Origin: Cytobacillus pseudoceanisediminis
GTDB taxonomy: Bacteria > Bacillota > Bacilli > Bacillales > Cytobacillaceae
Length of the DNA stretch: 64,000 nucleotides
Direction of reading: 5' to 3'
NCBI RefSeq assembly: GCF_023516215.1
Contig: NZ_CP097349.1
Span: forward strand, 992,001 to 1,056,000
Under the pieces are notes generated by a model. It searched no databases and was not told the origin of the DNA. It saw nothing but the letters and a program-made list of their open reading frames with translations. The stretch's first letter is position 1. Every line of letters starts with the position of its first letter. The translations under genes were made by a program, and so were the position numbers. Shown here piece after piece: positions 4,801 to 60,420 of the stretch.

Positions 4801-4860
4801 AATCAGCTGCCAAACTAGGTGGCTTTTTCTTATTTAACAAACGGGGCAGGTTTGTTAAAT
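4801..4860. repeat. Intergenic repeat: terminator hairpin plus GGGGCAGG core
   Basis: AGCTGCC pairs with GGTGGCT, followed by TTTTTCTTATT and then the core AACGGGGCAGGTTTGTT at 4840-4856. The position just after hisS suggests it acts as that gene's terminator. Confidence 0.7.
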
Positions 4861-4996
4861 AAAAAACGCTATGATGTTGAAAAGTAGTGGATAAAACATT
4901 CAAAAACACTCGTTCGGAAAAATGTTCACAAATTGTTCACTTACGAAAAGGTTTTGAACATATCTATAATAATTAAGTATTAAAAGAAGGGAATGA

Positions 4997-5485
4997 TTGA
5001 AATTGCCAACAACTAAAAAGGAAAGTTTTTATTTTGGTCTTATTATGTGTTTTGGAATGGTATTAGTTATGACGTTGTATAACCTTTACCTGAATGGAAT
5101 GATTGGTAAATTGACTTTCTATGAAGGATTAATAGAATTTTTTAGTGCTTTTATTATTGCACTAATCCTTGACCTATTTCTGGTTGGTCCGAATGCAAAA
5201 AAGTTAGCATTGAAATTAACCACAAATACTAATAGTAAAATATATACTATACTAACTATTTCAACCTTCATGGTTATAGGAATGGCGTTATTTATGTCAG
5301 TTTTTGGACTAGTAACAATGATTTTGCACAGTGGATATAATACCAACATTATCTTGCTTGATTATTTGTCTGTGTTTGGAAAAAATCTTATTATGGCATT
5401 ACCTTTACAAATTCTAGTTATGGGGCCACTTGTGCGTTTCATCTTTATTAAGTACATCAAACCGAAAAGAATGAACTTAGTATAA
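4997..5485 (+). CDS. DUF2798-type integral membrane protein
   Basis: This is a ~162-residue protein with four predicted membrane helices arranged as two similar halves. Each half ends in a motif of the type LDLFLVGPNAKKLA or LQILVMGPLVRFIF. This duplicated GP-x(4) pattern matches my recollection of the DUF2798 family. No catalytic motif is visible and the function is unknown. The start is TTG with an AAGGG ribosome site 5 bases upstream; a second TTG at 5003 is possible. A repeat-type terminator lies upstream, so it should be monocistronic. Confidence 0.75.
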   Translation: MKLPTTKKESFYFGLIMCFGMVLVMTLYNLYLNGMIGKLTFYEGLIEFFSAFIIALILDLFLVGPNAKKLALKLTTNTNSKIYTILTISTFMVIGMALFMSVFGLVTMILHSGYNTNIILLDYLSVFGKNLIMALPLQILVMGPLVRFIFIKYIKPKRMNLV

Positions 5486-5842
5486 ATTAAATCTTATTAA
5501 AACTATACTTAAACTTAAAGGTACATTAATCAAAAAGGGTTAAGGCATTTTTTTAGTTGAAAACTCTTTATAAGCTAACAGTAACGGACCAAGTTAGATT
5601 AAAAAGATATTTTATAAGCTTGCTGATATGTCTGTTGATAAGTGAATTATTGTCATTATATATTATTACCATAAGGAAGATTGGAATAATTAGTCAAGGT
5701 GAATTCATATGGAATCAAATGGCACATTTTATTTAATCTAACAATATGCTTTTTTGATAGCCACTAATTCAACTTGCTTTTGTTCAAGAGCCGCCGCCCA
5801 GCTGTTTTGTTGAATAAGGAATAAAATGGTGCTTATGGTCAA
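5486..5842. other. Intergenic region without a supported gene
   Basis: No coding frame with a ribosome site is seen on either strand. The segment 5785-5815 (GCCGCCCAGCTGTTTTGTTGAATAAGGA) resembles a degraded intergenic repeat. The rest is AT-rich and unremarkable. Confidence 0.4.
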
Positions 5843-6055
5843 TTAATCCTCATATTTCTTGAAGTTCTTTTTTGGTTCAGATCGATTGCCGTAAAGGTAT
5901 TCAGCATTTTTTACAGAATAGTGTTCACTTACTTGGACCGTCAGCCAGGTAAACACACCACCTATAATAATTCCTGCTTTCCAGTATCCTAAAAGAAATG
6001 AGACTATAGATATAATTAATAAGGTGACAAGAATAATTACTAATGCTTTTTTCAA
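5843..6055 (-). CDS. Small two-helix membrane protein, hypothetical
   Basis: This encodes 70 residues with an N-terminal helix (ALVIILVTLLIISIVSFLLG) and a second hydrophobic segment (AGIIIGGVFTWLTV), followed by a charged tail. It starts at a TTG with an AAGGTGG ribosome site on the minus strand. The start overlaps the stop of the upstream small gene by 4 bases (TTGA), which suggests translational coupling. I do not recognise the family. Confidence 0.45.
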   Translation of the reverse strand: MKKALVIILVTLLIISIVSFLLGYWKAGIIIGGVFTWLTVQVSEHYSVKNAEYLYGNRSEPKKNFKKYED

Positions 6056-6240
6056 AATATTCCACCTTCTTCTTGGTGTTTAAGGACTTCTACGTGTGTC
6101 GTAGTAGGTACGTCTCTTGTGCTTGTCATTGTGATGATCGGGGCGAGATTTATTAGGTTGTCGGTGCTGTAAAGTGAATGTTGAAATATTATAAGAAATA
6201 CCTGCAGAATAGTTATTGTGAAAATAAACCATCTAAACAC
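6052..6240 (-). CDS. Small membrane protein, hypothetical, upstream partner
   Basis: This encodes 62 residues with one N-terminal membrane helix (WFIFTITILQVFLIIF) and a polar tail containing TMTSTRDVPTTT. The GTG start has only a weak ribosome site, so the call is tentative. The overlap with the next small membrane gene argues for a real two-gene unit. The function is unknown. It is divergent from the acetyltransferase at 6266. Confidence 0.33.
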   Translation of the reverse strand: MFRWFIFTITILQVFLIIFQHSLYSTDNLINLAPIITMTSTRDVPTTTHVEVLKHQEEGGIF

Positions 6241-6265
6241 CTGACTAGATCGGAGGAAAAATTAA

Positions 6266-6715
6266 GTGGAAAAAGTAGTCGAATATAAAAAACTAACAAT
6301 CGGTGATGAGAGTAGTTTTTCTAAATTAGTATTATTGTTTAACAATGAATTTGAGTCACCAGATTTGAACTACGTAAATGATAAGAACATAAGAAGTCTT
6401 ATAGCTAAACCCGATTTTATTTGTTTTGTTGCTTTTATTGGTGATGAAGTTGTTGGTGGTTTAACTGGTTACGAGTTATTGATGTATGACCAGGAGGGTT
6501 CTTCGATGTATTTATATGACTTGGCGGTCGATAAGAACTATCAGCGTCGTGGAATTGGAAGTAATTTAGTTGGTGAATTAATGGAATATTGCAGATCAAA
6601 AGATATAAAGGATTTATTTGTTCAAGCTGATGTGGAAGATCAACATGCTGTTGAATTCTACAATAAAATTGGAGGGGATGATTCGGAGACGGTACAGTTT
6701 TCGTTTCATCTTTAA
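6266..6715 (+). CDS. GNAT acetyltransferase resembling AAC(3)-I aminoglycoside acetyltransferases
   Basis: This is a GNAT-fold acetyl-CoA-dependent N-acetyltransferase of 149 residues. The C-terminal half reads VGGLTGYELLMYDQEGSSMYLYDLAV, then acetyl-CoA binding motif A (YQRRGIGSNLVGELM), and then DLFVQADVEDQHAVEFYNKIGG. The YDLAV, RRxGIG and VQAD..D..AVxFYxKxG blocks are those of AAC(3)-I. The length also fits (about 150). The start is GTG, 8 bases after GGAGGA. Whether it acetylates aminoglycosides or another amine is unknown; the family assignment is firm and the substrate is inferred. Confidence 0.82.
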   Translation: MEKVVEYKKLTIGDESSFSKLVLLFNNEFESPDLNYVNDKNIRSLIAKPDFICFVAFIGDEVVGGLTGYELLMYDQEGSSMYLYDLAVDKNYQRRGIGSNLVGELMEYCRSKDIKDLFVQADVEDQHAVEFYNKIGGDDSETVQFSFHL

Positions 6716-6841: not shown

Positions 6842-6912
6842 TTGAGCGGTTGCTTTGCTTCAATAGGAGCAAAGCATTTTTCTTTTTTGCTAACGGGGCA
6901 GTTTTGCAGAAT
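6842..6912. repeat. Intergenic repeat copy
   Basis: A hairpin (TTGCTTTGCTTC paired with AGCAAAGCA) and a T-rich tract are followed by the core TAACGGGGCAGTTTTG at 6891-6906. It lies between the acetyltransferase and the DHFR-like gene. Confidence 0.6.
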
Positions 6913-7631: not shown

Positions 7632-7664
7632 CCTTTTCTCCTAAAGTAGATTACGCTAACGGAT

Positions 7665-7912
7665 ACGTTCGTATTATAGAGTTAACCAGTTTTTACTGGT
7701 TGCTCTTTTTTATAGGACCTATTATTTCAGTAGCCAGGGTAGAACGTACGGGTGCGTGGGAGGTAGATCTCGTCAACTAAACTGTTCGCCCCCTACTTGT
7801 AGAATGATGTTTGAGGCTGGTTGGGACAAATGATCTCGTATAACAAGCGAAGCTATGGAACTACAGGAAGGTATAGGGGTTACTGGTGAGTAAAACTAAG
7901 GGAGAGATATTA
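7665..7912 (+). ncRNA. Candidate bridge RNA region of the IS110 element
   Basis: This is a ~250-base non-coding stretch immediately upstream of the DEDD transposase. It is richer in GC than its flanks and contains several short self-complementary segments, such as GTTAACCAGTTTTTACTGGTTG and GGGAGGTAGATCTCG. In IS110-group elements the left non-coding region encodes a bridge RNA that base-pairs with donor and target DNA. The assignment is by position and family knowledge; no fold was computed. Confidence 0.45.
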
Positions 7913-9115
7913 ATGAATCCAGTCATTGGCCTAGATGTAGCCAAAGGAGAAAGTGAGGTTCAAGCCTTTTTAGATAAAGACAAGCCGTTCGGGAAAAGTT
8001 TCAGTGTAAAGCATACCAAGGAGGATTTAGATTCGCTTATTTCTTTTTTGAGAGAGATAGAGGGACATACTGGGGTTAGGCCAGCAGTTATTCTTGAATC
8101 TACAGGACATTACCATACACCGATTATTCAATGTCTTGAGGGAAGTCAGTATCTATACATCTTGGTAAATCCCATCATTTCTTATCAAGCTAAGAAAACA
8201 AGCCTTAGAAAGGTAAAGACTGATGCAGTTGATGCATATCACCTTTGTGTTCTTTACTACAAGGAAGAATTTGAGCCATATAAGAAAAGAGGACTGAGAC
8301 TTCTAAACCTGAGAACATTGTCAAGGCAATACGAAACCGTTACGAACCTTTACATCCAGGCAAAACTTCAGTTTCATACTCTTCTTGATCAGATATTTCC
8401 TGAATACAGGGGAGTCTTCGGGGATTTATTTTCGAAAGTTTCTCTTAAAATATTAAAGGAGTTTCCAACATCCGAAGATGTACTGATGGCAGGAGAAGCA
8501 AAGATTTTGGCACGAATTAAGGAAATGCGTATTAAACGATCCCCAAGTTGGATGAGGGAGAAGGCACACAAATTAATGGCTTCAGCTAAGCGGAATCCAT
8601 TCCAACAAGGTGTTTATGAAAGCCAGTTGTTCAGTTTGGATATGTATATCAATATGCTTCTTCAATACCAAGAACACCTATCAAGCTTGGAGAGGCAGAT
8701 AGATGTCCTGGCAGAAGAAATTGAAGAATGTAAGATAATCCAATCAATTCCCGGTATAGGAGAAAAAATCGCGGCAACGATTATTTCTGAAATCGGGGAA
8801 ATTGACCGGTTTAATCACCCTAAAAAACTTGTGGCTTACGCAGGAATTGATCCAAGTGTCCATTCATCAGGTAAGTTCACAGCTACGATAAATCATATTA
8901 CCAAACGAGGTTCAAGCCGATTACGGCACGCTTTATATATGGCCGTATTATGCGGTATAAGAAGCTCGAGGAACAAGAAGCTAAAAGAGTATTATGATCG
9001 GAAACGAAATGAAGGAAAGCCTTCAAAAGTAGCGATGATAGCTTGTGTAAACAAGCTTTTACACTGGATTTATGCAATCCTAAAAAGGAATGAGCAGTTC
9101 CTAGATATGGCTTAA
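7913..9115 (+). CDS. IS110-family transposase (DEDD recombinase)
   Basis: This is an RNA-guided recombinase of about 400 residues. The N-terminal RuvC-like DEDD domain is visible: Asp in IGLDVAKGE, Glu in AVILESTGHYH, and the paired Asp residues in KVKTDAVDAYHL. The C-terminal transposase_20 domain contains SIPGIGEKIAATIISEIGEI, and then KKLVAYAGIDPSVHSSGKF with the conserved serine region. The ATG at 7913 follows GGGAGAG with good spacing; a GTG at 7886 in frame is possible. All catalytic residues are present and the frame is intact, so the element may be active. Confidence 0.92.
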   Translation: MNPVIGLDVAKGESEVQAFLDKDKPFGKSFSVKHTKEDLDSLISFLREIEGHTGVRPAVILESTGHYHTPIIQCLEGSQYLYILVNPIISYQAKKTSLRKVKTDAVDAYHLCVLYYKEEFEPYKKRGLRLLNLRTLSRQYETVTNLYIQAKLQFHTLLDQIFPEYRGVFGDLFSKVSLKILKEFPTSEDVLMAGEAKILARIKEMRIKRSPSWMREKAHKLMASAKRNPFQQGVYESQLFSLDMYINMLLQYQEHLSSLERQIDVLAEEIEECKIIQSIPGIGEKIAATIISEIGEIDRFNHPKKLVAYAGIDPSVHSSGKFTATINHITKRGSSRLRHALYMAVLCGIRSSRNKKLKEYYDRKRNEGKPSKVAMIACVNKLLHWIYAILKRNEQFLDMA

Positions 9116-9243
9116 TCAACAAGAAAAAGCAGCTAATGAAAAACCTTCCAAAAGGTATTTGGAGGGTTATTTGGCGTGCCTTCCAAAGTATAACACGGAA
9201 GAAAAAAATTTTTAATAAGAAGTTCTTGACTCCTATTAGCTGG

Positions 9244-9420
9244 TTTATTTAAGAAGGGAACTAAATATTTCTAGTTAGAAAAAGGAATGTCTTCAAAATT
9301 GAGACATTCCTTTGGAGTTTCTAGAGTGAAATTTACTTTCAAAGGGAACCAACTTACTCATTATTACATTATGCCAGTGCTGTGTGCCTTATAGCATTAG
9401 TTGACTTGAAAGAAGCATTT
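9244..9420 (+). repeat. Long direct repeat, left copy
   Basis: About 170 bases starting TTATTTAAGAAGG and ending TTGACTTGAAAGAAGCAT recur at 61241-61400 in the same orientation with moderate divergence and a ~25-base indel. The left copy contains a perfect 9-base stem hairpin (GGAATGTCT / AGACATTCC). The copies flank the 52-kb accessory region. Confidence 0.7.
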
Positions 9421-13169: not shown

Positions 13170-13250
13170 AAAGTAACGGGTGCAAGAGTTGAAGATCAGT
13201 ATAGATCGGCAGCTCTTTCTTCTTATTAGCTAACAGGACAGATTTGTTGA
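13170..13250. repeat. Intergenic repeat, complete two-part copy
   Basis: TAACGGGTGCAAGAGTTGAAG at the left, then the hairpin GATCAGTATAGATC with GGCAGCTCTTTCTTC, then the second part TAACAGGACAGATTTGTTGAAAAG. The left and right parts are direct-repeat relatives of each other. A further degraded core lies at 13417-13436. Confidence 0.65.
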
Positions 13251-13605
13251 AAAGATTATAAAAAAACTAGTTCCTGGCCTTCTTTTTATTGCCTTTTAAC
13301 TATATTACAAAAAGAAGGAGATTAGATTGGCCCGAAAGACAATTTAAAGCAGCGTCATTCCTAACCAAAGATGCTTTGATTCACAAAGGATTAAAGCATC
13401 TTTTGAAAAGGTCTTATTGAACAAACGGGTCAGATTTGAGGTATAGTCATCTTAGAGATCGATCTCCTCCCACTAATTCTTAAGAGGATATGACCAATCA
13501 AAAAATAAGAAGATTTGGCATATAAGACTCAATCCATATTTCTCACCTCGATATATAATTAAAACTATTATCTGAAGAGTTACACTCTTATATTCAGCTT
13601 AAAGG

Positions 13606-21825: not shown

Positions 21826-21872
21826 TATCTTAGGCGGCTTTTCTGATTGTACAAAAGGGGCAGGTTTGTTTT
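21826..21872. repeat. Intergenic repeat copy
   Basis: AGCTGCT / GGCGGCT hairpin and TTTTCTG, then AAAAGGGGCAGGTTTGTT at 21853-21870. Confidence 0.65.
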
Positions 21873-21940
21873 ATAAGAAAAATTTACTGTTATAGCGTAT
21901 CAGACCCAAACTGCGAAATAAAAAAGACGAGTTTCCCAGT

Positions 21941-22679: not shown

Positions 22680-22844
22680 TATTCTTATTGAAGTAAAGAC
22701 CTGCGGTAATATGTCAACTCCAAAAGTTTAAAGATGTTTAGTTTTCAATTTACTTGTGACTAAAAAAGACCGTAAGGAACTACACCAGTAAATAAATGTA
22801 ATTTACTGGAAATCAGGAAGGCTTGCGCTGACAAAGTATATTTG

Positions 22845-24074
22845 TCAGATCTTCACGCACCTTTCTTGCGCAAAGACTTGGCGTTTGCGAAGCAGCGCAT
22901 CCACCAATCGCACGAGTTTTCTTGCTGTTAGGACGAGGGCACGTTTGTGTTGATGTTTTGGAACTTCAAGACATTTCTTTTGGTAAAACTCGCGATATTC
23001 GGGAATCTGTCTCCTAACCGAGTTGGCGGCTTCAACGAGGTAGTAGCGCAGATATTCGTTTCCTTGTCGCGAAAGAGAAGTGTCTTCAGCTGTAAAGCGG
23101 CCAGACTGGTGTTTCCGCCAGTATAGACCTGCATATTTGGCAATCTTGCTTTCATCTTCAAAACGTTCAATCTGGCCGATTTCGGCAATAATGCCTGCGG
23201 CATATACAGGTCCGATGCCCGGTATAGTCTCCAAGGTCTGGGAAAGGCCTGTCATTAGACGGGTAATGGCTTTGTCGATTTCCTTGATCTGTTTCTGAAA
23301 GGAACGGATCAGCTCAATGGAAGTACCTAAAAGGAGATCCATTGAGTCTTCTACCACTTTATCTAAGCGGTAGGAAGAGCGGACTGCCCGTTGGATGGAA
23401 GTAGCTACTTTATCGGGATCAGAGAAACGATTCTTCCCGTGTTCCTGAAGGAACGCAGCCAATTCATCTAAAGGCATCTGGGCCAGTTCTTCCAGGCTGT
23501 ATCTTTCGAGGAAGAGGTCCATCATCGCATTTCCGAAGGCGGAAGAGTCCACCTCATGGGAAAAGTTGCTGCACTTGAAATTCAGATGTTGGAGAAAGTG
23601 CTGTTTCTCCTTTGTCATCATCTTAACCAAGTGATAACGTGAACGGGTCAACTGTTGGAGTGCGACATACTGGCTCTCCTTGACAATGGACATCTGGTTA
23701 CGGCCGAATCGGACATAATCGGCAATCACGAATGCATCAATTTCATCCGTCTTATTCATATCCGAATAGCTTTTCTTGAAGTTGGCAATCTGTTTCGGAT
23801 TAATGACGAACACTTGAGTGTCAAAGACCTTAAGGTCTTCATCATAATGAAGGAACATAGAAGGATGGAAGCTATAGACCGAAGTGGACTCCAAACCGAT
23901 CTTAACGCTTTCAACTTTACGTCCTTTCGCAAGGCCGAGGATTCGTTCCTTCAAAACTGTGGCTCCTGGAAGGTCATTTGATACCGTGAAGGTATCCACT
24001 TTTGATCCTTCCTGATCAAGGATACAGCCTTTCATGTCAAACGAACTTACGTCTAAACCAACAAATAATCGCAT
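22845..24074 (-). CDS. IS110-family transposase (DEDD recombinase)
   Basis: This is a 409-residue transposase. The N-terminal DEDD domain has Asp in LFVGLDVSSFDMKG, Glu in KIGLESTSVYS and two Asp in MNKTDEIDAFVIADYV. The C-terminal transposase_20 domain has ETIPGIGPVYAAGIIAEIGQ and KIAKYAGLYWRKHQSGRFTAED. The frame is intact. The clear divergence from the 7913 transposase indicates independent arrival. An AGGAGGG ribosome site precedes the ATG. Confidence 0.92.
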   Translation of the reverse strand: MRLFVGLDVSSFDMKGCILDQEGSKVDTFTVSNDLPGATVLKERILGLAKGRKVESVKIGLESTSVYSFHPSMFLHYDEDLKVFDTQVFVINPKQIANFKKSYSDMNKTDEIDAFVIADYVRFGRNQMSIVKESQYVALQQLTRSRYHLVKMMTKEKQHFLQHLNFKCSNFSHEVDSSAFGNAMMDLFLERYSLEELAQMPLDELAAFLQEHGKNRFSDPDKVATSIQRAVRSSYRLDKVVEDSMDLLLGTSIELIRSFQKQIKEIDKAITRLMTGLSQTLETIPGIGPVYAAGIIAEIGQIERFEDESKIAKYAGLYWRKHQSGRFTAEDTSLSRQGNEYLRYYLVEAANSVRRQIPEYREFYQKKCLEVPKHQHKRALVLTARKLVRLVDALLRKRQVFAQERCVKI

Positions 24075-24118
24075 GGGGGTTACCCTCCTTTCATTGTGGA
24101 ATCATTGGGTATTTCCTT

Positions 24119-24365
24119 GGACGCCTCGAGATATCTCTAGTATGGACGCCGATCATCAACCTCGTGTATCAGAACTGCATCTGCATCGAAAGCCGCCTCA
24201 GGGCTGCTTGTCACCTGAGTTCGAGAGGCAGTGCGCTCAGCCTGCGAGTATGAAGTGCCGCACGTACACTGAGAAACAGTCTTTAGATGTAGTCAAGCTA
24301 CAGGGGCAGGAAGAATTGTCCCAAATGATCCTAAGACCATTATCTAGAAATATCTCGAGACGTCC
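24119..24365 (-). ncRNA. Candidate bridge RNA region bounded by inverted repeats
   Basis: GGACGCCTCGAGATATCTCT begins at 24119 and its near-perfect reverse complement ends at 24365 (22 bases each, two mismatches). They enclose ~200 GC-rich bases upstream of the transposase. Open frames through this region on either strand look incidental. By family knowledge this is where an IS110 bridge RNA would be encoded; the bounding stem is unusual. No fold was computed. Confidence 0.42.
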
Positions 24366-24435
24366 AAACAGACCACCTTATATTGATAGAAAAGATGAAA
24401 AAGAGAATGGTATTTAAGGAGTTAAACATAATATA

Positions 24436-24455
24436 CGAGGGGCAGGTTTGTTGAA
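24436..24455. repeat. Repeat core beside IS110
   Basis: CGAGGGGCAGGTTTGTTGAA. A minus-strand terminator-like hairpin (GCCGCAAAT / ATTTGCGG with T7) follows at 24467-24491. Confidence 0.55.
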
Positions 24456-24686: not shown

Positions 24687-24708
24687 TAAGGGGCAGGTTT
24701 GTTCAATA
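24687..24708. repeat. Repeat core
   Basis: TAAGGGGCAGGTTTGTTCAA. It follows a GGTGCGTTAATCC left-part remnant at 24664. Confidence 0.5.
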
Positions 24709-28054: not shown

Positions 28055-28120
28055 AGGTGCAATCTAAAATAGGCAGCACTCTTTTTTCTTATTCTATAAA
28101 CGGGGCAGGTTTGTTGAAGA
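28055..28120. repeat. Intergenic repeat copy
   Basis: GGTGCAATC..GGCAGCACTC hairpin with TTTTTTCTTATT, then AACGGGGCAGGTTTGTTGAA (28099-28118). Confidence 0.65.
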
Positions 28121-28209: not shown

Positions 28210-28647
28210 ATGAAGATCAAAAGAATAGATCATGTGAGTATAAACGTCAACGATCTTTCAGAGGCTAAAGCGTTTTTTCTTGATTTAGGACTTGAAGTGC
28301 AAGCGGAATGGGAATTGGATGGAGAACAGTTGGATAGAATAGTTGGGCTTCATGATGTTAAAACGGCCTGTGTAGGATTGGGGATGCCAGATGGTCAGGC
28401 ATGGATAGAGCTAGTTAAATTTTATACGCCGTCAGATGAAAAAGGTATTCAGCAGCCTTTTGCAAATACGCTGGGTATCCGACATATTTGCTTTGCTGTT
28501 GAAGACATTGAAGCTATTGTTGAAAAATTGAAAACGAAGGGCACGAAAATCTTTAGTGAGATACAACAATATGAAGAAAGTTATAAGTTATGCTACGTTC
28601 GTGGTCCAGAGGGGATTATTTTAGAGTTGGCGGAGCAAATCAGATAA
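28210..28647 (+). CDS. VOC-family (glyoxalase/bleomycin resistance fold) protein
   Basis: This is a 145-residue protein with two beta-alpha-beta-beta-beta modules. It begins KIKRIDHVSINVNDLSEAKA with the first metal-ligand His. It continues with AWIELVKFY and then GIRHICFAVEDIEAIVEKLK. The C-terminal YVRGPEGIILELAEQ carries the last Glu ligand. The metal site (His, Glu, His, Glu) looks complete, so it is probably a metalloenzyme rather than a binding protein. The substrate is unknown. The ribosome site is AGGAGGT. It is monocistronic between two repeat copies. Confidence 0.85.
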   Translation: MKIKRIDHVSINVNDLSEAKAFFLDLGLEVQAEWELDGEQLDRIVGLHDVKTACVGLGMPDGQAWIELVKFYTPSDEKGIQQPFANTLGIRHICFAVEDIEAIVEKLKTKGTKIFSEIQQYEESYKLCYVRGPEGIILELAEQIR

Positions 28648-28691: not shown

Positions 28692-28756
28692 ATCCAGCTG
28701 CTAATCTGGCAGCTTTTTTCATTTTAAACAAAAGGGGCAGGTTTGTTAGGAAGGAG
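28692..28756. repeat. Intergenic repeat copy
   Basis: CAGCTGCTAATCTGGCAGCTTTTTTC hairpin, then AAAGGGGCAGGTTTGTTAGG and AAGGA. Confidence 0.65.
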
Positions 28757-28818
28757 TTTCTTACTTTTTTGGTGAAATACTCCTTATTGGATACCTAATT
28801 TTAAAGGAGAAGATGTTA

Positions 28819-29289
28819 ATGAACCGAACTGACCTGCTATTAAGAATGCTCGATACTACGTACGCTAAAGAGAGTTGGTATATGCCTTTCAAACATGCAA
28901 TAGAAGGACTCACCGCAGAACAAGCTAGGTGGAGACCAACAGGAGACTCAACAAAATCAGTATGGGAAAATGTTAATCATCTTATTTACTATAAAGAAAG
29001 ACTTGCAGCAAATTTAGAAGGCCGTGAATTGCCGCAAATTTTCGATGGTGACGAAACATTCTACTTAACTAAACAATCAAATGATGACAAAGAATGGATG
29101 GGAGTCGTTGAACGCGCGGAAATGGTTCATCGCAAATTAAGAGAAGCTTTAAGTAAAACAACTACTGAAGCGCTTGAACAAAATTCTCTTGAAGAGAAGC
29201 TATTAGACATAATGCTTCATGATGCATACCATACGGGACAAATTATTCAAATTAGGAAGATGCAAGGTTCTTGGCCATCGCATCGTTGA
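28819..29289 (+). CDS. DinB-family protein
   Basis: This is a 156-residue four-helix-bundle protein of the DinB/YfiT superfamily. Three His ligands are visible: VWENVNHLIYYKERL in helix 2, and LHDAYHTGQIIQIRK with the HxxxH pair near the C-terminus. Such proteins bind divalent metal; some are bacillithiol or mycothiol S-transferases. ATG at 28813 is too close to AAGGAG, so 28819 is taken. The substrate is unknown. Confidence 0.82.
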   Translation: MNRTDLLLRMLDTTYAKESWYMPFKHAIEGLTAEQARWRPTGDSTKSVWENVNHLIYYKERLAANLEGRELPQIFDGDETFYLTKQSNDDKEWMGVVERAEMVHRKLREALSKTTTEALEQNSLEEKLLDIMLHDAYHTGQIIQIRKMQGSWPSHR

Positions 29290-29956: not shown

Positions 29957-30028
29957 TGATTGTTTTGCTTCTATAAGTAACAAAGCATTTTTCTATTTCG
30001 ACTAACAGGGCAGGTTTGTTGAAAAAGG
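29957..30028. repeat. Intergenic repeat copy
   Basis: TTTTGCTTC..AACAAAGCA hairpin and T tract, then TAACAGGGCAGGTTTGTTGA and AAAAGGA. Confidence 0.6.
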
Positions 30029-31098: not shown

Positions 31099-31204
31099 TT
31101 TCTTGTTGTATTAACTAGGCAGTTTAGGTAAAAAAGCAATATTCAGTTTTACATTTTGAATAGGGAAACAGACCAAGGAAGATGGCTTGGTCTGTTTTTT
31201 AATA

Positions 31205-35682: not shown

Positions 35683-35748
35683 AAGAACTAGCTGCCATCT
35701 CAGGCAGCTTATCTTCTTCCACAAAAGGGGCAGGTTAGTGGAAGAAGA
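35683..35748. repeat. Intergenic repeat copy
   Basis: AGCTGCCATCTCAGGCAGCT hairpin, T-rich tract, then AAAAGGGGCAGGTTAGTGGA and AGAAG. Confidence 0.65.
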
Positions 35749-37847: not shown

Positions 37848-37903
37848 AGCTGCTAAATGGCGGATTTTTCTTATTCGTTCAACGGGGCAGGTTTGTTGAA
37901 GAA
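37848..37903. repeat. Intergenic repeat copy
   Basis: GGAGCTGCTAAATGGCGG with TTTTTCTTATTCG, then AACGGGGCAGGTTTGTTGAA (37881-37900) and GAAC. Confidence 0.65.
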
Positions 37904-38747: not shown

Positions 38748-38815
38748 CGATACAATCAGCAGCCCAACCAGGCAGTTTTCTTATATGACTAACGGGGCAG
38801 GTTTGTTGAATAAGA
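38748..38815. repeat. Intergenic repeat copy
   Basis: CAGCAGCCCAACCAGGCAG with TTTTCTTATATG, then CTAACGGGGCAGGTTTGTTG and AATAAG. Confidence 0.65.
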
Positions 38816-39640: not shown

Positions 39641-39722
39641 TAACGGGTGCGTTGATCCAGGAAGGATTAGCCGCCTATTTTGTTGAACCTTTATAGAACA
39701 AAAGGGACAGTTTAGTTGAATT
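39641..39722. repeat. Intergenic repeat, two-part copy
   Basis: AAGCTAACGGGTGCGTTGATCC with AAGGATTAGCCGCC hairpin, then AAAAGGGACAGTTTAGTTGA. The left 17 bases are shared with the copy at 44862. Confidence 0.6.
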
Positions 39723-41624: not shown

Positions 41625-41692
41625 TTGCTGCACTAGTCATAGGACAGCTTTTTTCTTTTTAAACTTAAAGGGCTGGTTTGGTGAAGAAGGAA
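41625..41692. repeat. Intergenic repeat copy
   Basis: GCTGCACTAG..GGACAGC with TTTTTTCTTTTT, then AAAGGGCTGGTTTGGTGAAG and AAGGA. Confidence 0.55.
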
Positions 41693-42557: not shown

Positions 42558-42637
42558 AACGGGTGATAGAGTTGAAGATCCAGCATGGATCGGCAGCTCT
42601 TTTTCTTATTCGACTAACGGGGCAGGCTTGTTGAACA
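42558..42637. repeat. Intergenic repeat, complete two-part copy
   Basis: AACGGGTGATAGAGTTGAAG, hairpin with GGATCGGCAGCTCTTTTTC, then CTAACGGGGCAGGCTTGTTG. Almost the same left part occurs at 46409. Confidence 0.68.
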
Positions 42638-42749
42638 ATGCTCATTATTTTTTTCAACAATCGGGCCAATTAGCTGAATAAAAAAGGAATTGTTTGTAGG
42701 TTAATCGAAGCTAATCATGAAGAGAAAAGCGGAGAATGGAGAGGATAAA

Positions 42750-43439
42750 ATGAAGGTTATTGGTCTTATTGGCGGAATGAGTTGGGAATCTTCTGTTGAA
42801 TATTATCGGATTATCAATGAAGAAGTTAAAAGAAGATTAGGGGGATTACATTCAGCGAAATGTCTTTTATATAGTGTCGATTTTCATGAAATTGAACGTT
42901 ACCAATCAGAAGGCGCCTGGGGAAAGGCCGGTGAAGTGTTAGGTAATGCTGCGCGTTCTTTGGAAAAGGGAGGGGCTGACTTTATTATTATTTGTACTAA
43001 TACGATGCACAAAGTTATAGGTGATATCCAGTCGAAAATTAATATCCCCATTTTGCATATCGCAGATGCAACAGCAGCCCAAATTAAAAAGAAAGGAATT
43101 AAGTCTGTTGGGTTACTAGGCACAAGGTACACAATGGAGGAGGATTTTTATAAATCACGCTTGGAGTTTAATGGTATACAAGTTATTGTGCCAAATGACA
43201 ATGAAAGAGAGATTATAAACAAGATTATTTACGAAGAGTTATGTTTGGGTAAGATTCATCAAAAGTCAAGGGATTATTATAAAAAAGTTATCCAAGGTTT
43301 AATCAAGTCTGGAGCTAAAGGGATTATATTAGGCTGTACAGAAATTGGATTATTGGTAAAACCGGAGGATTCTAATGTTTCTCTATTTGACACAACCTAC
43401 ATACATGCTTTCGAAGCTGTAAATATGTCCTTAAAATAG
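42750..43439 (+). CDS. Aspartate/glutamate racemase family protein
   Basis: This is a PLP-independent amino-acid racemase of 229 residues (YgeA/RacX-like). The N-terminal KVIGLIGGMSWESSVEYYRI is diagnostic. The two catalytic Cys are in FIIICTNTMHKV and IILGCTEIGLLV. It would interconvert L and D forms of one or more amino acids; D-amino acids in Bacilli influence cell-wall and spore physiology. The ATG at 42750 has a GGAGAGG site, so the longer frame from 42717 is rejected. Confidence 0.9.
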   Translation: MKVIGLIGGMSWESSVEYYRIINEEVKRRLGGLHSAKCLLYSVDFHEIERYQSEGAWGKAGEVLGNAARSLEKGGADFIIICTNTMHKVIGDIQSKINIPILHIADATAAQIKKKGIKSVGLLGTRYTMEEDFYKSRLEFNGIQVIVPNDNEREIINKIIYEELCLGKIHQKSRDYYKKVIQGLIKSGAKGIILGCTEIGLLVKPEDSNVSLFDTTYIHAFEAVNMSLK

Positions 43440-43802: not shown

Positions 43803-43996
43803 GCTGAGGGTGCGTTAATCGAGAAGGATTAGGTGCTTTTTTTATTTACAGAAGTTCTTTATGGAACAAACGGGACAGCATACCTGAATAAAGCTAAGTT
43901 TGTGAAAAGATGTACTTAAACTATAGGGTGCAAGAGTTGAAGATCCAACAGGGTCAAGCTCTTTTTAATATTCAGCTAAAGGGCAGCATTAGTTGA
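43803..43996. repeat. Two adjacent intergenic repeat copies
   Basis: Copy one: GAGGGTGCGTTAATCGAGAA ..TTTTTTTATT.. AACGGGACAGCATACCTGAA (43803-43894). Copy two: TAGGGTGCAAGAGTTGAAGA ..CTCTTTTTAATATTC.. AAAGGGCAGCATTAGTTGAT (43923-43996). Confidence 0.6.
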
Positions 43997-44869: not shown

Positions 44870-44947
44870 CGGGTGCATTCTAAAGGATCGGCTGCAATCA
44901 CAGCCGGTCTTTTTTATTCAAGTATAGAGGCGGTTTACTTCAATAAG
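44860..44947. repeat. Intergenic repeat, two-part copy that supplies a stop codon
   Basis: ATTAAGCTAACGGGTGC at 44862-44878 (identical to 39635-39651), hairpin CGGCTGCAATCACAGCCG with TCTTTTTTATTC, then AGAGGCGGTTTACTTCAATA. The TAA stop of the upstream gene is inside it. Confidence 0.65.
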
Positions 44948-46402: not shown

Positions 46403-46478
46403 CTTTAAGAACGGGTAATAGAGTTGAAGATCCAGTATGGATCGGCAGCTCTTTTTTTATTCGACTAGAGGGGAAGTA
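46403..46478. repeat. Intergenic repeat, two-part copy
   Basis: AACGGGTAATAGAGTTGAAG, hairpin with GGATCGGCAGCTCTTTTTTT, then CTAGAGGGGAAGTATTC. The left part is nearly identical to 42560. Confidence 0.65.
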
Positions 46479-46961
46479 TTCTTTAATAAGGAAAAAATTT
46501 CTAAGTTTGCAATGAAACGAGGTTTTGCATTAAGACTATTAGTTTTTATGATTCTCCTGGCATTTGTTATTTTTAATGGTTTAAAAACAGATTTTATCGC
46601 ATTGTTGATAATACCATAATCCTTCATAGGAAAGCCTTGGTACAGTTATTCTAGAATGGAACAAAATTAATATGTTTAGGTCATCGTTTTTGTTTTATAG
46701 TTAACGAATAGCTTGCTTTTAATAAGGGTTGCTGCGGCAGCTTGAATGCTCTTTTCGTTCCAAATAAAAAGAAGTAAATGAAAGATCGTTGCTCTTCTAT
46801 TATAGGTGGAGAAAGCTTTATTATGATATATGCTACAATATTAAAAAAGATAAACTTTGGAGGCACACCACTGCAATAGGACTTATAACGAAATTAAGTT
46901 CTTGGTATATCCCGTCAAGGACATATTATGAAACAGTGCTTCAATAGAGGAGTTGTATAAA

Positions 46962-47920: not shown

Positions 47921-47985
47921 CAGCTGCCAAACAATAGGCGGCTTTTTCTTATTGCACTAAAGGAGCAGGTTTGTTAAAGAAGGAT
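47921..47985. repeat. Intergenic repeat copy
   Basis: CAGCTGCC..GGCGGC with TTTTTCTTATTGC, then TAAAGGAGCAGGTTTGTTAA and AGAAGGA. The stretch 47631-47920 before it has no supported gene. Confidence 0.65.
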
Positions 47986-50675: not shown

Positions 50676-50701
50676 TTACGAATGGGGCAGGTTATGTAAA
50701 C
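50676..50701. repeat. Repeat core, diverged
   Basis: TTACGAATGGGGCAGGTTATGT. It follows a GCAGCTGAAATCCTGG relic. Confidence 0.45.
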
Positions 50702-53306: not shown

Positions 53307-53392
53307 CTTGACCTCATTCTCTTCCTGTTCGTTCATGTATTGCAATATCATTAAATTAAAAAGTGCTTTTTTGCTGGTCATAAAAAGAAAGA

Positions 53393-54502: not shown

Positions 54503-54542
54503 CTCTTATTTCTCTCAGTTAAGGATTAACGCTTTTATTTTT

Positions 54543-54575
54543 ATTTAAGAAAGCGGGGCAGGTTAGTGTTCAAAA
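54543..54575. repeat. Intergenic repeat core
   Basis: AAAGCGGGGCAGGTTAGTGT, followed by AAAAGAGGA. Confidence 0.55.
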
Positions 54576-54650
54576 GAGGATTGTTGAATATGGAATATGT
54601 ATTTACTGCAGGAATATACATAATTAGGTAATGGGAAGGTGAGAGTTTAA

Positions 54651-54728: not shown

Positions 54729-54848
54729 GGAATAATGGTGACGTTAATTTTGATGAAAACGAGAAAAAACGTCCAATGAACAATTTGCTCTATGCTAAAC
54801 GAAGGACATATCCATAGGCGGATAAAAAAGCAAAGAGAGGGAAACCAA

Positions 54849-56089: not shown

Positions 56090-56738
56090 CACCGAGCCTG
56101 CGGTTCGTCGTTCGTTTAAAAAAAGGACGGTGAATCATCGGCATTATTGGGGCAGAACCTTGCCATGACAGGGAGTTGGTTGGATATAGTGTAAGCGGCC
56201 AAGATCATAGCCGCAAGTCCTTGGAAGTCTATAAAAGTCTGCAATCACCGATGCCCAGCAGTTATATAACGAGGTCATATAAATAATTCCCCATTTAATT
56301 ACATCTAGATTGCGGGTGGTTTCAGCTTCGCTGATACTACCCCTTTTTAAGTTGAAAAAATAAATTGATAAAAATGAAGCTTATTTTCCTCTCTATTTTT
56401 AAAATTTTCCGTTTTTTCATTATTTTACTTCTTCCATTACAAAGAAAAAGACGTAACTGGAGCCGTTCTCCATTTAGATCAAGGCTTCCTGTATATGTCA
56501 AAGCTATACTGCAGTCGATATTAGTTAAAAACATAAACCTTCCAAAAGAGCAGACCTTTTTGTAAATGGGACTAAATAATTTTAAGAGGGTTATTAAAGC
56601 AAAGGTATCTGCATATTCAAAATAAGGAAACGATTATTCTAATCAATATTGGACTAACAGATTTTAAATTTCTTCCAATTCTATGCGGATAGTATACTAT
56701 TTTTATTAAGTATTAATATTGATGGGAGTTGCAGTGAT
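56090..56738. other. Intergenic region
   Basis: No supported gene. The first ~190 bases keep the GC-rich composition of the upstream gene. A terminator sits at 56314-56347 and AT-rich DNA follows. Confidence 0.35.
56314..56347 (+). terminator. Intrinsic terminator
   Basis: GGGTGGTTTCAGC pairs with GCTGATACTACCC around TTC, then TTTTT. Confidence 0.7.
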
Positions 56739-58084
56739 TTGTTTCGAAGGGAAAAGGCTGTTATTATTGGCGGAGGTATTTCTGGAAAATTGGCTGCACG
56801 TGTACTGTCTGAAATTTTCCAAGAGGTAATTATTTTAGAACGTGATTCAGAACCACATGACCTTTTCCGAGGAAAGGTGTACCACATGGCGAGCATATCC
56901 ATGCGCTTCTTTTTTCCGGTGCGAATGGTCTCGAAGAGCTGTTTCCTGGTATTACTGAGAAGTTTAACGCAAGCGGAGCTGTTAAAATCAATTCCACCCA
57001 AGACATTTCTTGGTTTCACCATGGGGTTTGGAAACTCCGCTATGTTGGAGACTACACAACCATTCTTCAAACACGCCCGCATCTAGAGTGGCATATTGAA
57101 CAATACTTTAAAAATATCCCAAACGTAACCATTCAGTACAGCCAAAACGTTCAAAACTTTATATATATTGAAGAAGAAAATCGAATTACTGGAATCGAAA
57201 TAATCAATGGCAGCAACTCCATAAGAACCATAAATGCGGACCTGATTGTAGATGCAAGCGGAGTAAACGGTCTTTCCTCAAGATGGCTAAACAAACGAGA
57301 AGTACATATTCCAGAAAAGACGGTTAAAATTGACTTAAGTTATTTTACAAAGACGCTTCAACTCCCTGACAACCAAAACAGGGACTGGTCCATTAAACTT
57401 CTGTATCCAACCCCTCCCTTTGAAAAAATCGGCGGAGGCATTTCTAAGGTTGAGGGAAATCGTTTTTTAGTCACGTTTATGGGATATCATAACGAAATAA
57501 ACGAAAAAGAAATACTGAAAAGTGACAACAGCTTTATAGAATTAGCCAAAAAATTGCCAAAACTGGACATCTATCAAGAACTAAAGGTTGCCACTGCTTT
57601 ATCCAGCACCTCTGCCTACCGTGTACCGAATATCACTTGGAGAAGATTTGATAAGGTGAATAATTTTCCAAACGGTCTTTTAATGATCGGGGATACGATA
57701 TGCCGAATCGATCCTTTTTTTGGGCAAGGCATGAGTATTGCAGTCATGGAAGCGCTAGCATTAAAAGAATTACTTGCGAACGAAACGTACACAAATCAAA
57801 AAATGATTGAAACCTTTCATCAACAGGCTGTGAAAATCATTTCCCCTATTTGGAATATGGTTATAACAGAGGATTTTCGTTATCCGGAAACTATTGGGAA
57901 AAAGCCCGCAGGTCTTTCTATTCAGCAATGGTATGCGAAAAACATTTTTCTTTTATCATCTGAGAATAAAGATATCTATAACTCATTTATTAAGGTTATG
58001 CACCTTCTTCGCCCGACTTCCACCTTGATGCATCCAAGAATTATAAAAAGTGTGTTGAAGAGAAGATTTACAAATAATCGATAG
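56739..58084 (+). pseudogene. FAD-dependent oxidoreductase/monooxygenase, frameshifted
   Basis: This is a flavoprotein of ~448 residues when joined. The Rossmann FAD motif is KAVIIGGGISGKLAARVLSE. After the break the frame reads GVPHGEHIHALLFSGANGLE and continues uninterrupted to the stop, including DLIVDASGVNGLSSRWL. The second FAD motif is LLMIGDTICRIDPFFGQGMS. One missing C at 56861-56862 (cc for ccc) explains the break: DPFPRKGVPHGEH is restored. The start is TTG. It resembles UbiH/halogenase-like monooxygenases acting on small aromatic or lipid substrates; the substrate is unknown. Confidence 0.78.
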
Positions 58085-58127
58085 AATTTTCTTCCAGAAA
58101 TAAATTCTAAAATAAAAAAGAAACAAA

Positions 58128-58246
58128 CGTTCTTATAAATACAAATTAACGCTTTCAAAAAATGGTTAAAAAATGCCCAACCCCTGGTATATAGGGGTTG
58201 GGCATTTTCCATAGTTAAGGTTAAGAAGGATTAACGCTTATTTATG
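58128..58246. repeat. Paired repeat with conserved hairpin, copy 1
   Basis: GTTCTTATAAATACAAATTA, hairpin ATGCCCAACCCCT / AGGGGTTGGGCAT with TTTT, then TTAAGAAGGATTAACGCTTA. Homologous to 61703-61828. The stem serves as terminator of the flavoprotein gene. Confidence 0.65.
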
Positions 58247-58513
58247 AATTACGCTTATTTGTAAACAAGTTAAATGGATTTTACTGCCTCTCTGCTATCT
58301 TTATGGGATTATAGGGATTTTATTAACTATCTAATGTACCCTTTAGTTTAGGTGCAACTGATGATCAAAATAACTAATGGTTATATTAAATAAAACAAGG
58401 TTGTCCTGCTTAAATTTCATTGTATAAGAAGAATAAGGTTGAACTGAAAATCACACCAAATTATTGTGTTATGTTATATTTATGTGGATTAAGAAATGGA
58501 AGGAGCATTATAC

Positions 58514-58558
58514 ATGTGTTGCTCATGCTGTCCAGTAGTTGATATATCCCTTTTCTAA
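58514..58558 (+). CDS. Cysteine-rich leader peptide upstream of the lincosamide-resistance-like gene
   Basis: A 14-codon frame encodes MCCSCCPVVDISLF, with AAGGAG 8 bases upstream. Its last codons and stop lie in one arm of a hairpin whose other arm holds the ribosome site of the following nucleotidyltransferase. This is the layout of translational attenuation at inducible resistance genes such as ermC and cat. Ribosome stalling on the leader would open the hairpin. The inducing drug is unknown. Confidence 0.55.
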   Translation: MCCSCCPVVDISLF

Positions 58559-58578
58559 AAGAAAATTATTGAAAAGGG
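58548..58578 (+). promoter_or_regulatory. SD-sequestering hairpin of the lnu-like gene
   Basis: CCCTTTTC (58548-58555) pairs with GAAAAGGG (58571-58578), leaving a 15-base loop. The downstream arm overlaps the AAAAGGGGA ribosome site of the ATG at 58588. The leader peptide stop is inside the hairpin. Confidence 0.6.
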
Positions 58579-58587
58579 GACTAAGAT

Positions 58588-59391
58588 ATGTTAATCCAAA
58601 AGAAGATTATTCAAAGTGTTAGAGATAAATGTATCCAAGATAAATCGGTTTCAGCGTGTATGATGTATGGGTCTTTTACTAAAGGTGAAGGCGATCAGTA
58701 TTCTGATGTTGAGTTTTATATATTCATTGACGATGATAAGGTAGAGAATTTTAGCTCAAGACTTTGGATTTCTGAAATATATTCAGTTGACTTAATCTTT
58801 TACAATGATTATGGAACAGAGGTAGTGATTTTTTCAAATATGATTCGTGGAGAATTTCATTTTCTTCCTGAATCAGAAATAGAAATCATAAGAAGTTTTA
58901 AACCGACTGGTGTTTTCCCAGATACTGATTCTATGTATATTTATGACTCCACCAATCAGTTAAAGCCTTTACTTGATGATTTAGGTGGGGATGGACCAGA
59001 CCGAATGACAGATGAGAATGTAAACTTTGCATTTAATAATTTCGTGAATACTTGGCTGATGGGTGTAAACGTAATGAAAAGAGGAGAGTTAGCACGTTCT
59101 TTAGAGGTTCTAACTCAGGTTCAAAAGTTTATATTACAATTAATAAGGGTCAAAGAACAAACAGTTGAGCGTTGGTTAAACAGTACAAAAAACTTGGAAG
59201 AAGATATAAGCACCGAGTCTTACAATGATTATGCTGCAATTACCTCAACATTAAAAGAAAAAGAGATTAAAAATGCTTATAAGAGTGCTTTGAAATTAGC
59301 AGAAAAACTAAATTATATATTGGCTGCACACTATAGGGTAGAAGTAAATAAAGATTTGATCAGTAAGCTGCACCAATATCTCAAGAAATAA
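58588..59391 (+). CDS. Lincosamide nucleotidyltransferase-like protein (Lnu(B)/(F) type)
   Basis: This is a 267-residue nucleotidyltransferase, the usual length for Lnu(B)/LinB. The GS-x-D-x-E core is VSACMMYGSFTKGEGDQYSD and VEFYIFIDDD. The following VDLIFYNDYGTEVVIFSNMI and GEFHFLPESEIEIIRSF match this family, as does the helical C-terminal half. Family members adenylylate lincomycin and clindamycin. The upstream leader peptide and hairpin support an inducible resistance role. The frame is intact. Confidence 0.83.
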   Translation: MLIQKKIIQSVRDKCIQDKSVSACMMYGSFTKGEGDQYSDVEFYIFIDDDKVENFSSRLWISEIYSVDLIFYNDYGTEVVIFSNMIRGEFHFLPESEIEIIRSFKPTGVFPDTDSMYIYDSTNQLKPLLDDLGGDGPDRMTDENVNFAFNNFVNTWLMGVNVMKRGELARSLEVLTQVQKFILQLIRVKEQTVERWLNSTKNLEEDISTESYNDYAAITSTLKEKEIKNAYKSALKLAEKLNYILAAHYRVEVNKDLISKLHQYLKK

Positions 59392-59472
59392 AATCAAAGA
59401 AGTTCTCTGTTATGACCAGCGCATTTTTAATTAAAGAGCGCCATTCTTTAATAAGGTATGCTTTCCTTAATG

Positions 59473-59553
59473 AACTAACGAGTGCTTTGCTTTAATATTC
59501 TGGCTGCTAAAATGCAGCCTTTTCTTATTCAATTAACGGGGCAGTTTAGTAAA
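59473..59553. repeat. Intergenic repeat, two-part copy
   Basis: CTAACGAGTGCTTTGC, hairpin GGCTGCTAAAATGCAGCC with TTTTCTTATTC, then TTAACGGGGCAGTTTAGT. Confidence 0.65.
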
Positions 59554-59629
59554 GAACTGTTGCTATATATCCATTTATATCGTATTATAAGATATATTCT
59601 TAAGTTGCGATATAAGGAGAGGTAAGTTG

Positions 59630-60051
59630 ATGAAAGAAATTGCACTTTTAAATCATCTTTGGACGGACATTTACTACCAATTACGTTATAACCACCAAGA
59701 AAAAATTCCTCACCAAAGCATACGCATTCTACAAGTTATTCAAAAAGAGGAAGAAGTAGGAATCAAAGAGATTGCGGAAGCTATTCAAGTGTCTCACAAT
59801 ACAGCTTCAGAGCATATTAAACGCTTATTTGAAAAAAACTATGTATTTAAAACCCGCAGCATAGAGGATGAGCGTAAGGTCATTTTAAGGCTTACCGATT
59901 TGGGAAGTGATGTATTGCACCGTCATTCCAGTCTCGATGAAGAAAAGCTAAAAAAGTTCTATTCAAACAAATGAGTGCTGAAGAAAGGGAATTAATCTTA
60001 GAGGCATTTACATTATTACAGGAGAGAGCAAAAGATGTTCACAATAGTTAA
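59630..60051 (+). pseudogene. MarR-type regulator, frameshifted
   Basis: This is a winged-helix regulator of ~140 residues when joined. It shows HQSIRILQVIQKEEEVGIKE, IAEAIQVSHNTASEHIKRLF and the wing RSIEDERKVILRLTDLGSDV. After 59950-59955 (A run) the frame breaks. One extra A restores VLFKQMSAEERELILEAFTL and a stop at 60051. The restored stop overlaps the ATG of the DUF3147 gene, a normal operon junction, which supports a sequencing error rather than decay. Confidence 0.8.
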
Positions 60052-60379
60052 AATACTTATTTCAGCCATTATAATTGGCGTTATTACAGAATTCTCCCGA
60101 AGATATCCTCAACAAGGTGGAGTCATTGCGGCTTTACCAATTGTCAGCCTTTTAAGTATTTTATGGCTATATACTCAGGGTGAACAAATGGACAAAATAA
60201 GTAGGTTTGCTATTGGTGTTGTGTGGGGGCTTCCTGGAACAGTAGTGATGTTGCTAATTATAGGAATAGCATTAAAACATTCCATTCATTTATTTGCTTC
60301 ATTAGGTCTGGGAATCGCAGCTTGGCTAGTCTTATTTTTTGCTCAAGACCTCATAGTGAAACATATAAGCAGTTTGTGA
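60035..60379 (+). CDS. DUF3147-family membrane protein
   Basis: This is a 114-residue protein with four predicted helices. It shows KILISAIIIGVITEFSRRYP, QQGGVIAALPIVSLLSILWL and AIGVVWGLPGTVVMLLIIGI, characteristic of DUF3147. Function is unknown; it is usually paired with a regulator as here. It overlaps the MarR-like gene and is preceded by AGGAGAG. Confidence 0.82.
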   Translation: MFTIVKILISAIIIGVITEFSRRYPQQGGVIAALPIVSLLSILWLYTQGEQMDKISRFAIGVVWGLPGTVVMLLIIGIALKHSIHLFASLGLGIAAWLVLFFAQDLIVKHISSL

Positions 60380-60393
60380 AGAAATAAGCATAT

Positions 60394-60420
60394 CTAACGA
60401 GGCAGGTTGGTTGAACAAAC
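60394..60420. repeat. Repeat core
   Basis: CTAACGAGGCAGGTTGGTTG and AACAAAC. The following 200 bases hold only a TAACGGACAGG relic (60518) and no gene. Confidence 0.5.

Follow-up and report, generated by a model that had tools for sequence, protein, structure and literature searches.

Palindromic exchange sites and gene-cassette arrays in Cytobacillus pseudoceanisediminis: a probable integron-like recombination system of Bacillales

Introduction

Along 64,000 nucleotides of the Cytobacillus pseudoceanisediminis chromosome, accessory genes alternate with copies of one intergenic repeat. Is this repeat a terminator that has multiplied by itself, or the site at which genes are gained and exchanged? 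An initial annotation had left both readings standing: a cassette-like array, or a terminator-associated repeat that multiplies without carrying genes. Here, we analyzed this whole stretch (the window; C1:992001-1056000) together with its genome of 5.69 Mb—two contigs, the chromosome C1 of 5.35 Mb and a second one of 343 kb—and with related genomes. On sequence comparison, we consider it highly probable that the window is part of a gene-cassette array belonging to an integron-like site-specific recombination system of Bacillales, perhaps a capture system independent of true integrons. In the following, G000 denotes the window's own genome, G005, G019, and G061 denote other genomes, and L-numbers denote loci; the window's array is referred to as array 1 and a second one on the same chromosome as array 2.

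Results

Architecture and distribution of the sites

A 20-nt core recurs 14 times in the window at ≤3 mismatches, every copy on the plus strand, and 100 shuffles returned none. A weight matrix trained on the window's own core copies found 30 places scoring ≥14, 28 on the plus and two on the minus strand (21 of the 28 reach a score of ≥20; one single-base shuffle of 404 kb gave zero places at ≥14), which bears out the many same-orientation copies with hairpin, T-rich tract, and core described at the outset. The copy at 60396 scores below 14 because its left arm departs from the usual one. Sites were also collected from the fetched loci, keeping scores of ≥22 and removing lower scores and duplicates by 120-nt context. 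The consensus of these 707 distinct sites is a 14-7-14 palindrome, CTTATTNAACTAAC-GGGGCAG-GTTAGTTGAANAAG; as a palindromic core can be read on both strands, a few of them are reverse-strand readings next to a forward one.

A hairpin and a T-run precede most copies. The hairpin sequence differs from copy to copy: AGCTGCC..GGCGGCT, previously given as the common form, is one type beside GATCC..GGATC and GTTAATCC..GGATTAAC. Upstream of the hairpin, the window frequently harbors a second core (containing AACTAACGGGTGC) that combines the left arm of the main core with a GGGTGC spacer. It lies at −75 to −30 in 311 of the 707 sites and anywhere from −130 to −20 in 331 (reversed control, 1); the matrix for this core had been trained on the very data in which it was counted, unlike its reversed control. 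An Rfam scan of the window gave no match at the gathering score. The repeat is confirmed as real and as more than a terminator; the palindrome around the 7-nt spacer, the second core before the hairpin, and an insertion sequence (IS) of the IS110 family splitting the spacer at 22698-24438 had been overlooked initially.

Within the genome, the sites are clustered. Searching for GGGGCAGGTTTGTT at ≤1 mismatch yielded 37 matches (the reversed pattern, 2 genome-wide): 17 at C1:0.99-1.13 Mb (all plus), ten at C1:3.33-3.46 Mb (all minus), six on the 343-kb contig, and four elsewhere. Equal density genome-wide, named in the initial annotation as the outcome that would speak against an array, is not seen, with 27 of the 31 chromosomal matches in two arrays that jointly span ~0.25 Mb of 5.35 Mb. 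At score 20, site orientation (plus:minus) in the fetched stretches is 34:2 in array 1 and 0:30 in array 2. The best DnaA match is located at C1:4.15 Mb, and both arrays would run with the replication fork if the origin lies at dnaA and the terminus opposite. Beyond this genome, scanning the genomes of 84,980 species for the exact 20-mer returned at least 120 stretches, all 120 from Bacillales genera by record title, and 55 of 130 genomes drawn from the order carry the 22-nt consensus (≤3 mismatches; reversed control, one match in one genome).

Arm identity in shared cassettes

All-against-all comparison revealed units common to different species and genera, whose ends fall frequently—albeit not invariably—at sites. 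When site pairs were compared, 60 pairs (32 families) shared the downstream gene alone and 91 pairs (49 families) the upstream gene alone. We removed transposon families (2/32 right-shared and 3/49 left-shared) and retained one pair per family. Across the 30 downstream-shared families, the right arm is identical at 358/420 positions (random pairs, 0.66) and the left arm at 280/420 (random, 0.65). Among the upstream-shared families, 29 of 46 contained gaps and were left out; in the 17 gap-free ones, identity is 210/238 in the left arm and 147/238 in the right. The switch of neighbors falls inside GGGGCAG, probably at a GGGG^CAG junction.

Such a switch at the spacer is predicted by site-specific exchange, whereas homologous recombination along 40 bp of repeat should leave a diffuse boundary. 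Ordinary homologous recombination between terminator-plus-repeat copies, through natural transformation and RecA and with no dedicated enzyme, would be in keeping with the up to ~90 bp that copies share, with units recurring between repeats, and with the many site-bearing genomes that lack a recombinase (see below). Its crossovers, however, would spread over arms and hairpin, whereas the observed identity switches at the spacer with the far arm at random level; besides, one recombinase clade is placed at the sites and more distant Xer loci are not. We regard this explanation as decidedly unlikely.

Exchange of cassettes at a fixed point of the site, as indicated by the arm comparison, has its cleanest example in the comparison of array 2 with species G005. 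The two have the flanking cassettes in common (96.8% and 97.4%), while the middle one is swapped: a 241-aa open reading frame (ORF) in one and a 165-aa ORF in the other, with no blastn similarity. By our reading, the former is alpha/beta-hydrolase-like and the latter GNAT-like. A typical cassette holds one gene, sometimes more, and its own terminator; it starts with the right half-site, CAG-GTTAGTTGAANAAG, and ends with the hairpin followed by the left half-site, CTTATTGAACTAAC-GGGG. The palindromic site is the meeting point of neighboring cassettes, its left and right halves belonging to different ones.

These boundaries also bear on the gene-free alternative, namely a mobile terminator or an element akin to repetitive extragenic palindromes (REPs) or miniature inverted-repeat transposable elements (MITEs), whose clustering would reflect accessory regions that tolerate it. 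While the palindromic core and the hairpin with T-run in most copies suit such an element, what is shared between genomes are gene units rather than bare repeats, ending at the spacer beside different neighbors, and each site is put together from the ends of two different cassettes. With units recurring at spacer junctions and the repeats clustered, multiplication without genes is not favored and strikes us as very improbable, although no search aimed at a REP transposase (RAYT) was made.

One IS110 element is present in three copies in the window's genome (one in the window, two in array 2), each exactly between AAA and GGGGCAG, and in other genomes the ends of further IS110-type elements coincide with sites or fall close to them. 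It is conceivable from these positions that the junctions and the gene shuffling are the work of IS110-family elements that target the spacer. Yet, the spacer switch persists after removal of transposon families and most compared families are cassette gains without IS ends, making this a highly unlikely source of the pattern. We rather take the element for a parasite of the site, comparable to the IS1111-group elements (IS110 superfamily) that exploit the integron attC, where an excerpt of PMC11187229 describes insertion at one fixed point. Common to both is an IS110-superfamily element at a fixed point of a recombination site; here, the target is AAA/GGGGCAG and the hosts are others. A second IS110-type element occupies 7656-9256 of the window (transposase, 7886-9115), directly after a RibD-like gene, and its relatives end near sites in other genomes.

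Recombinases associated with the sites

No recombinase was found in the window. The genome as a whole has 19 tyrosine-recombinase matches, some of them fragments of one gene, and includes one recombinase gene inside array 2 that is frameshifted and carried as a cassette. From the fetched loci, we kept matches at ≥45% identity and merged overlapping loci, leaving 20 type-1 and eight type-2 recombinase loci.

The type-1 enzyme, found at 20 distinct loci of relatives, is a 279-aa tyrosine recombinase encoded divergently from the array at every locus that shows one. Eight of the 20 loci (Peribacillus, Neobacillus, Mesobacillus, Viridibacillus, Paenisporosarcina, Bacillus sp., Cytobacillus, and G019) have a site at −82 to −95 relative to the start of this gene, and the number rises to 11 when up to 131 bp are allowed; a Sporosarcina plasmid carries a further one at −86. 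By eye, 16 of the 21 upstream regions that were aligned show the core, in part degenerate, at the same place (17 when the fragment locus L095 is counted), and the aligned regions share a recombinase-side stretch that stops at the spacer. The arrangement of recombinase, head site, and cassettes in these relatives is, judged by gene order, the intI-attI-cassette layout. Between recombinase start and head site (0-140 bp upstream; L112, L113, L263, and others), we also observed a conserved stretch with TTATTGCC and ATAGAC, which could represent a promoter or accessory binding sites. In all eight distinct loci, a same-orientation site follows 867-881 bp after the start of the type-2 recombinase, which is itself a cassette.

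More distant Xer-like proteins of the housekeeping type (29-34% identity) had a site inside 3.5 kb in none of 14 loci, although they may act in trans. In a tree of 20 proteins, types 1 and 2 form one clade (98/98) apart from the distant Xer proteins; L071 and L072, which lack a 240-aa open frame at the set start, were excluded from it, as was L181. The L112 and L113 recombinases score 220.1 and 223.1 bits against NCBIfam NF040815 (XerA; cut-off, 220) and 95.9 and 97.0 bits against TIGR02249 (integron integrase; cut-off, 265). Their catalytic R and HxxR are spaced by 90 residues, which in the alignment is shorter than in XerD and leaves no extra stretch, and the nearest solved chains are an XerC-like protein, XerD, and XerA, with IntI4 matching over the C-terminal part only.

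Homologues of the recombinase number 1005 at E 1e-40, and 35 plasmid records have a match at E 1e-30, seven of them at ≥60% identity. We also noted distant XerA-like recombinases (33-36% identity) on Lactococcus, Enterococcus, Ligilactobacillus, Latilactobacillus, and Methanosphaera plasmids and in one Fusobacterium record. Across the 130 genomes of the order, 15 of the 23 recombinase-positive ones contain sites, compared with 40 of the 107 recombinase-negative ones (Fisher p 0.02; Mann-Whitney p 0.002).

Comparison with a same-species genome

G061 is listed as the same species as the window's genome. The right flank of array 1 (1054154-1136000) is collinear with G061 at 98.4-99.4%, whereas in place of 987088-1054154, which holds the array, G061 has 9.5 kb. 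When this segment was compared with 380 kb of the G061 chromosome, nothing came up beyond one 82-bp match and three of 52-59 bp at repeat elements, and the longest match listed for window positions 42700-62000 against the whole of G061 is 267 bp. Within array 2, 27.5 kb of the window's genome face 7.4 kb of G061 between flanks of 98-99% identity, with nothing shared (≥50 bp, 90%).

Strain breakpoints within the repeat, which the initial annotation had suggested looking for, were found in part. The downstream edge of array 2 breaks exactly at the GGGTGC core, its upstream edge ~30 bp past a half-site, and the left edge of array 1 directly after a hairpin and a degenerate left-arm-like stretch; the right edge of array 1 is considered in the Discussion. 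Array 1 as a whole is absent from the corresponding place in G061 and only some edges match parts of a site, so we did not retain the strain comparison as proof at the window itself.

Genes between the sites

Taking all loci together, 413 intervals of 200-2500 bp separate successive sites (median, 764 bp). Their longest ORF (≥60 aa) lies on the site strand in 349 cases and on the opposite strand in 41, with none in 23. On the site strand, this ORF starts a median of 87 bp past the spacer and stops 97 bp short of the next.

In the window, units between copies comprise mainly one or two genes. The single accessory genes originally described hold for most units and fail for an ABC-transporter-like operon plus MATE gene (13903-20381) and for 31.1-35.7 kb, a stretch with no score-14 site. 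Pfam was applied to 40 of the 96 listed window ORFs and returned, as family names only, a GNAT acetyltransferase, RibD_C, two glyoxalases, three DinB-like proteins, EamA, MATE, and MFS transporters, an Asp/Glu racemase, an AadA_C-type nucleotidyltransferase, a DNA-alkylation-repair-like protein, and several domains of unknown function (DUFs). The coordinates of sites and genes are compiled in Table 1.

The operon at 13903-20381 opens with a family-5 binding protein gene and has the MATE gene last. On a Cytobacillus solani plasmid (L266), annotated nikABCDE and MATE genes adjoin a type-1 recombinase. At 32417-33292, a 291-aa ORF has RCC1-type repeats from 114-bp tandem DNA units that are 60-75% alike.

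Table 1 Sites, cassette genes, and associated elements (window positions unless a contig is given)
Feature	Position	Strand	Remark
Site core (first 20 nt, AAC-spacer-right arm)	4840..4859	+	Score 51; arms pair over 13 nt
Site core	6892..6911	+	Score 33
Site core with upstream second core AACGGGTGC	13232..13251	+	Score 23
Site core, ends unit common to G005 (92%)	21854..21873	+	Score 44
IS110-family element between ..GAAGTAAA and GGGGCAG of a site	22698..24438	-	Transposase 22845-24074
Right half-site following IS110 end	24436..24455	+	Score 17
Site core	24687..24706	+	Score 31
Site core, exact match, 5' boundary of glyoxalase-family cassette	28099..28118	+	Score 50
Glyoxalase-family gene	28210..28647	+	Cassette also in L126, L157, L258 (93-95% identity), other left neighbors
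Site core	28731..28750	+	Score 36
DinB-like gene, next unit after glyoxalase cassette	28813..29289	+	Family match
Site core	30004..30023	+	Score 46
Site core, degenerate	31113..31132	+	Score 29
Site core, arms CTTATCTTCTTCCAC / GTGGAAGAAGATAAG pairing over 15 nt	35724..35743	+	Score 45
Site core	37881..37900	+	Score 38
Site core	38791..38810	+	Score 52
Site core, weak	39701..39720	+	Score 17
Site core	41666..41685	+	Score 37
Site core, second core upstream, 5' boundary of Asp/Glu-racemase cassette	42616..42635	+	Score 44
Asp/Glu racemase-family gene	42717..43439	+	Cassette common to G005 (97%), different left neighbor there
Site core	43869..43888	+	Score 24
Site core, degenerate	44924..44943	+	Score 31
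Site core, degenerate	46467..46486	+	Score 33
Site core	47959..47978	+	Score 47
Right half-site following IS-like end (..CTTATATTACGAA)	50681..50700	+	Score 28
Site core	54552..54571	+	Score 24
Site core	59535..59554	+	Score 34
Core, 2 mismatches, without usual left arm	60396..60415	+	Matrix score <14
Type-2 recombinase cassette	G000:C1:3429677-3430524 (L036)	n/a	Frameshifted; open in four relatives, L170-L173

Discussion

The suggestion that the window is a cassette array is upheld by the clustering of the sites, the spacer junctions, and the head recombinase of relatives; it does not extend to a classical integron, nor to a recombinase in the window itself. In the system that we propose, the array recombinase would cut and rejoin at the spacer, and cassettes would be excised as circles and inserted at the head site or at other sites. 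The asymmetric spacer would fix orientation, so that genes share one direction—in this genome, that of replication—and the terminator would insulate each cassette. The window's own system looks orphaned: the sole close family member found in its genome is frameshifted, so activity would need an enzyme in trans or have been lost recently. The frameshift may also be a sequencing error, and the arrays could be remnants or rely on a recombinase supplied in trans.

Several observations weigh against this interpretation. Strong conservation of the spacer means that the exchange point can be placed no more precisely than within a few bases. Nine of the 20 type-1 loci, several of them fragments, have no score-12 site within 131 bp. 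Sites also occur in 40 of the 107 recombinase-negative genomes of the order, and within the genus (35 genomes; 14 with and 21 without the recombinase) the association gave p 0.008 by Mann-Whitney and p 0.08 by Fisher (>1 site). The window's genome and G061, both rich in sites, yielded no close intact recombinase when searched; orphan arrays are thus common, as these two illustrate. Finally, the right edge of array 1 relative to G061 lies away from any recognized site, and a candidate one-cassette insertion at C1:3410043-3410927 was dropped since its ends are unclean.

How does the system relate to integrons? With sedentary chromosomal integrons, it shares a divergent tyrosine recombinase gene preceded by a head site, cassettes that each bring one site and mostly a single promoter-proximal gene facing one way, the recurrence of cassettes in different contexts, and targeting by IS110/IS1111-type elements. 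An integrase beside an attI-like head site is found in relatives and not in the window's genome, and the tandem array of genes plus sites in one orientation is seen in the own arrays and in most intervals. Integrons exchange at G^TT, and the R boxes of attC follow the consensus RYYYAAC / GTTRRRY. Here, exchange falls in the spacer GGGGCAG of a palindromic core, whose 707-site consensus (..GAACTAAC and GTTAGTTGAA) has no such boxes; cassettes carry terminators; and the enzyme is XerA-like. The IntI-specific insertion in the catalytic domain that, in an excerpt of PMC8138268, marks integron integrases is missing from the array recombinases, given the 90-residue spacing and a TIGR02249 score far below cut-off.

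An attC-like single-strand fold was likewise considered. Both stems were predicted in 48 (top strand) and 28 (bottom strand) of 310 elements, with z 0.4 for R''/R' and 1.9 for L''/L'. Arm pairing in the window alone reached 300 against a shuffled mean of 282 (40 of 5000 shuffles as high). Covariation of the palindrome arms had z 5.2 over all loci and 2.8 in the pooled rest; within six single genomes it ranged from −1.2 to 0.9, and because of this within-genome null we dropped the fold as evidence. A true integron with strongly diverged IntI and attC might still be suspected from the layout, one site per gene, one-way orientation, and IS110-type targeting, as well as from the name of the NF040815 model, 'site-specific tyrosine recombinase/integron integrase'. 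Against 96-97 bits where 265 are needed, no IntI insertion, no RYYYAAC/GTTRRRY, and no within-genome covariation, such an origin appears decidedly improbable. Since the tests of both enzyme and consensus fail and a folded strand finds no support, the system is not a member of the IntI family.

Among simple tyrosine recombinases of the XerA type (NF040815), the L112 and L113 enzymes are placed just over the model's cut-off; XerA itself serves dimer resolution in Archaea, while the recombinases described here are tied to cassette arrays. Acinetobacter plasmid pdif modules consist of genes flanked by short inverted-arm Xer sites of dif type, used by the host XerC/XerD. They resemble the present arrays in having genes between short inverted-arm sites, and differ in that we find a dedicated recombinase clade and an unrelated core. 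In the literature searched, with preprints and most subscription papers outside it, the system had no description; one may be in print. As for Firmicutes integrons, an excerpt of the IntegronFinder 2.0 paper reports one complete integron (Limnochorda pilosa) and few clusters of attC sites lacking an integrase (CALIN) (PMC9024848), and an excerpt of a review counts Firmicutes among the phyla with detected integrons (PMC8618304).

On balance, we lean toward a XerA-derived gene-capture system of Bacillales that arose independently of IntI, a convergent integron with double-stranded palindromic cores, a GGGGCAG crossover spacer, and a head site of its own. It would be housed on chromosomes as well as large plasmids, include a second, cassette-borne recombinase lineage, and have its own IS110 parasites. 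Large cassette arrays are best known from Proteobacteria. Here, an integron layout with a different enzyme and site appears in many Bacillales genera, on chromosomes and plasmids, and if our reading is true, large-scale gene capture would extend to a group in which classical integrons are very rare. It would possibly provide an independent comparison for integron biology and make Gram-positive gene capture directly testable. A large, unread pool of cassette genes would then exist in Gram-positive bacteria, with site and recombinase as the markers by which this hidden accessory gene pool could be read.

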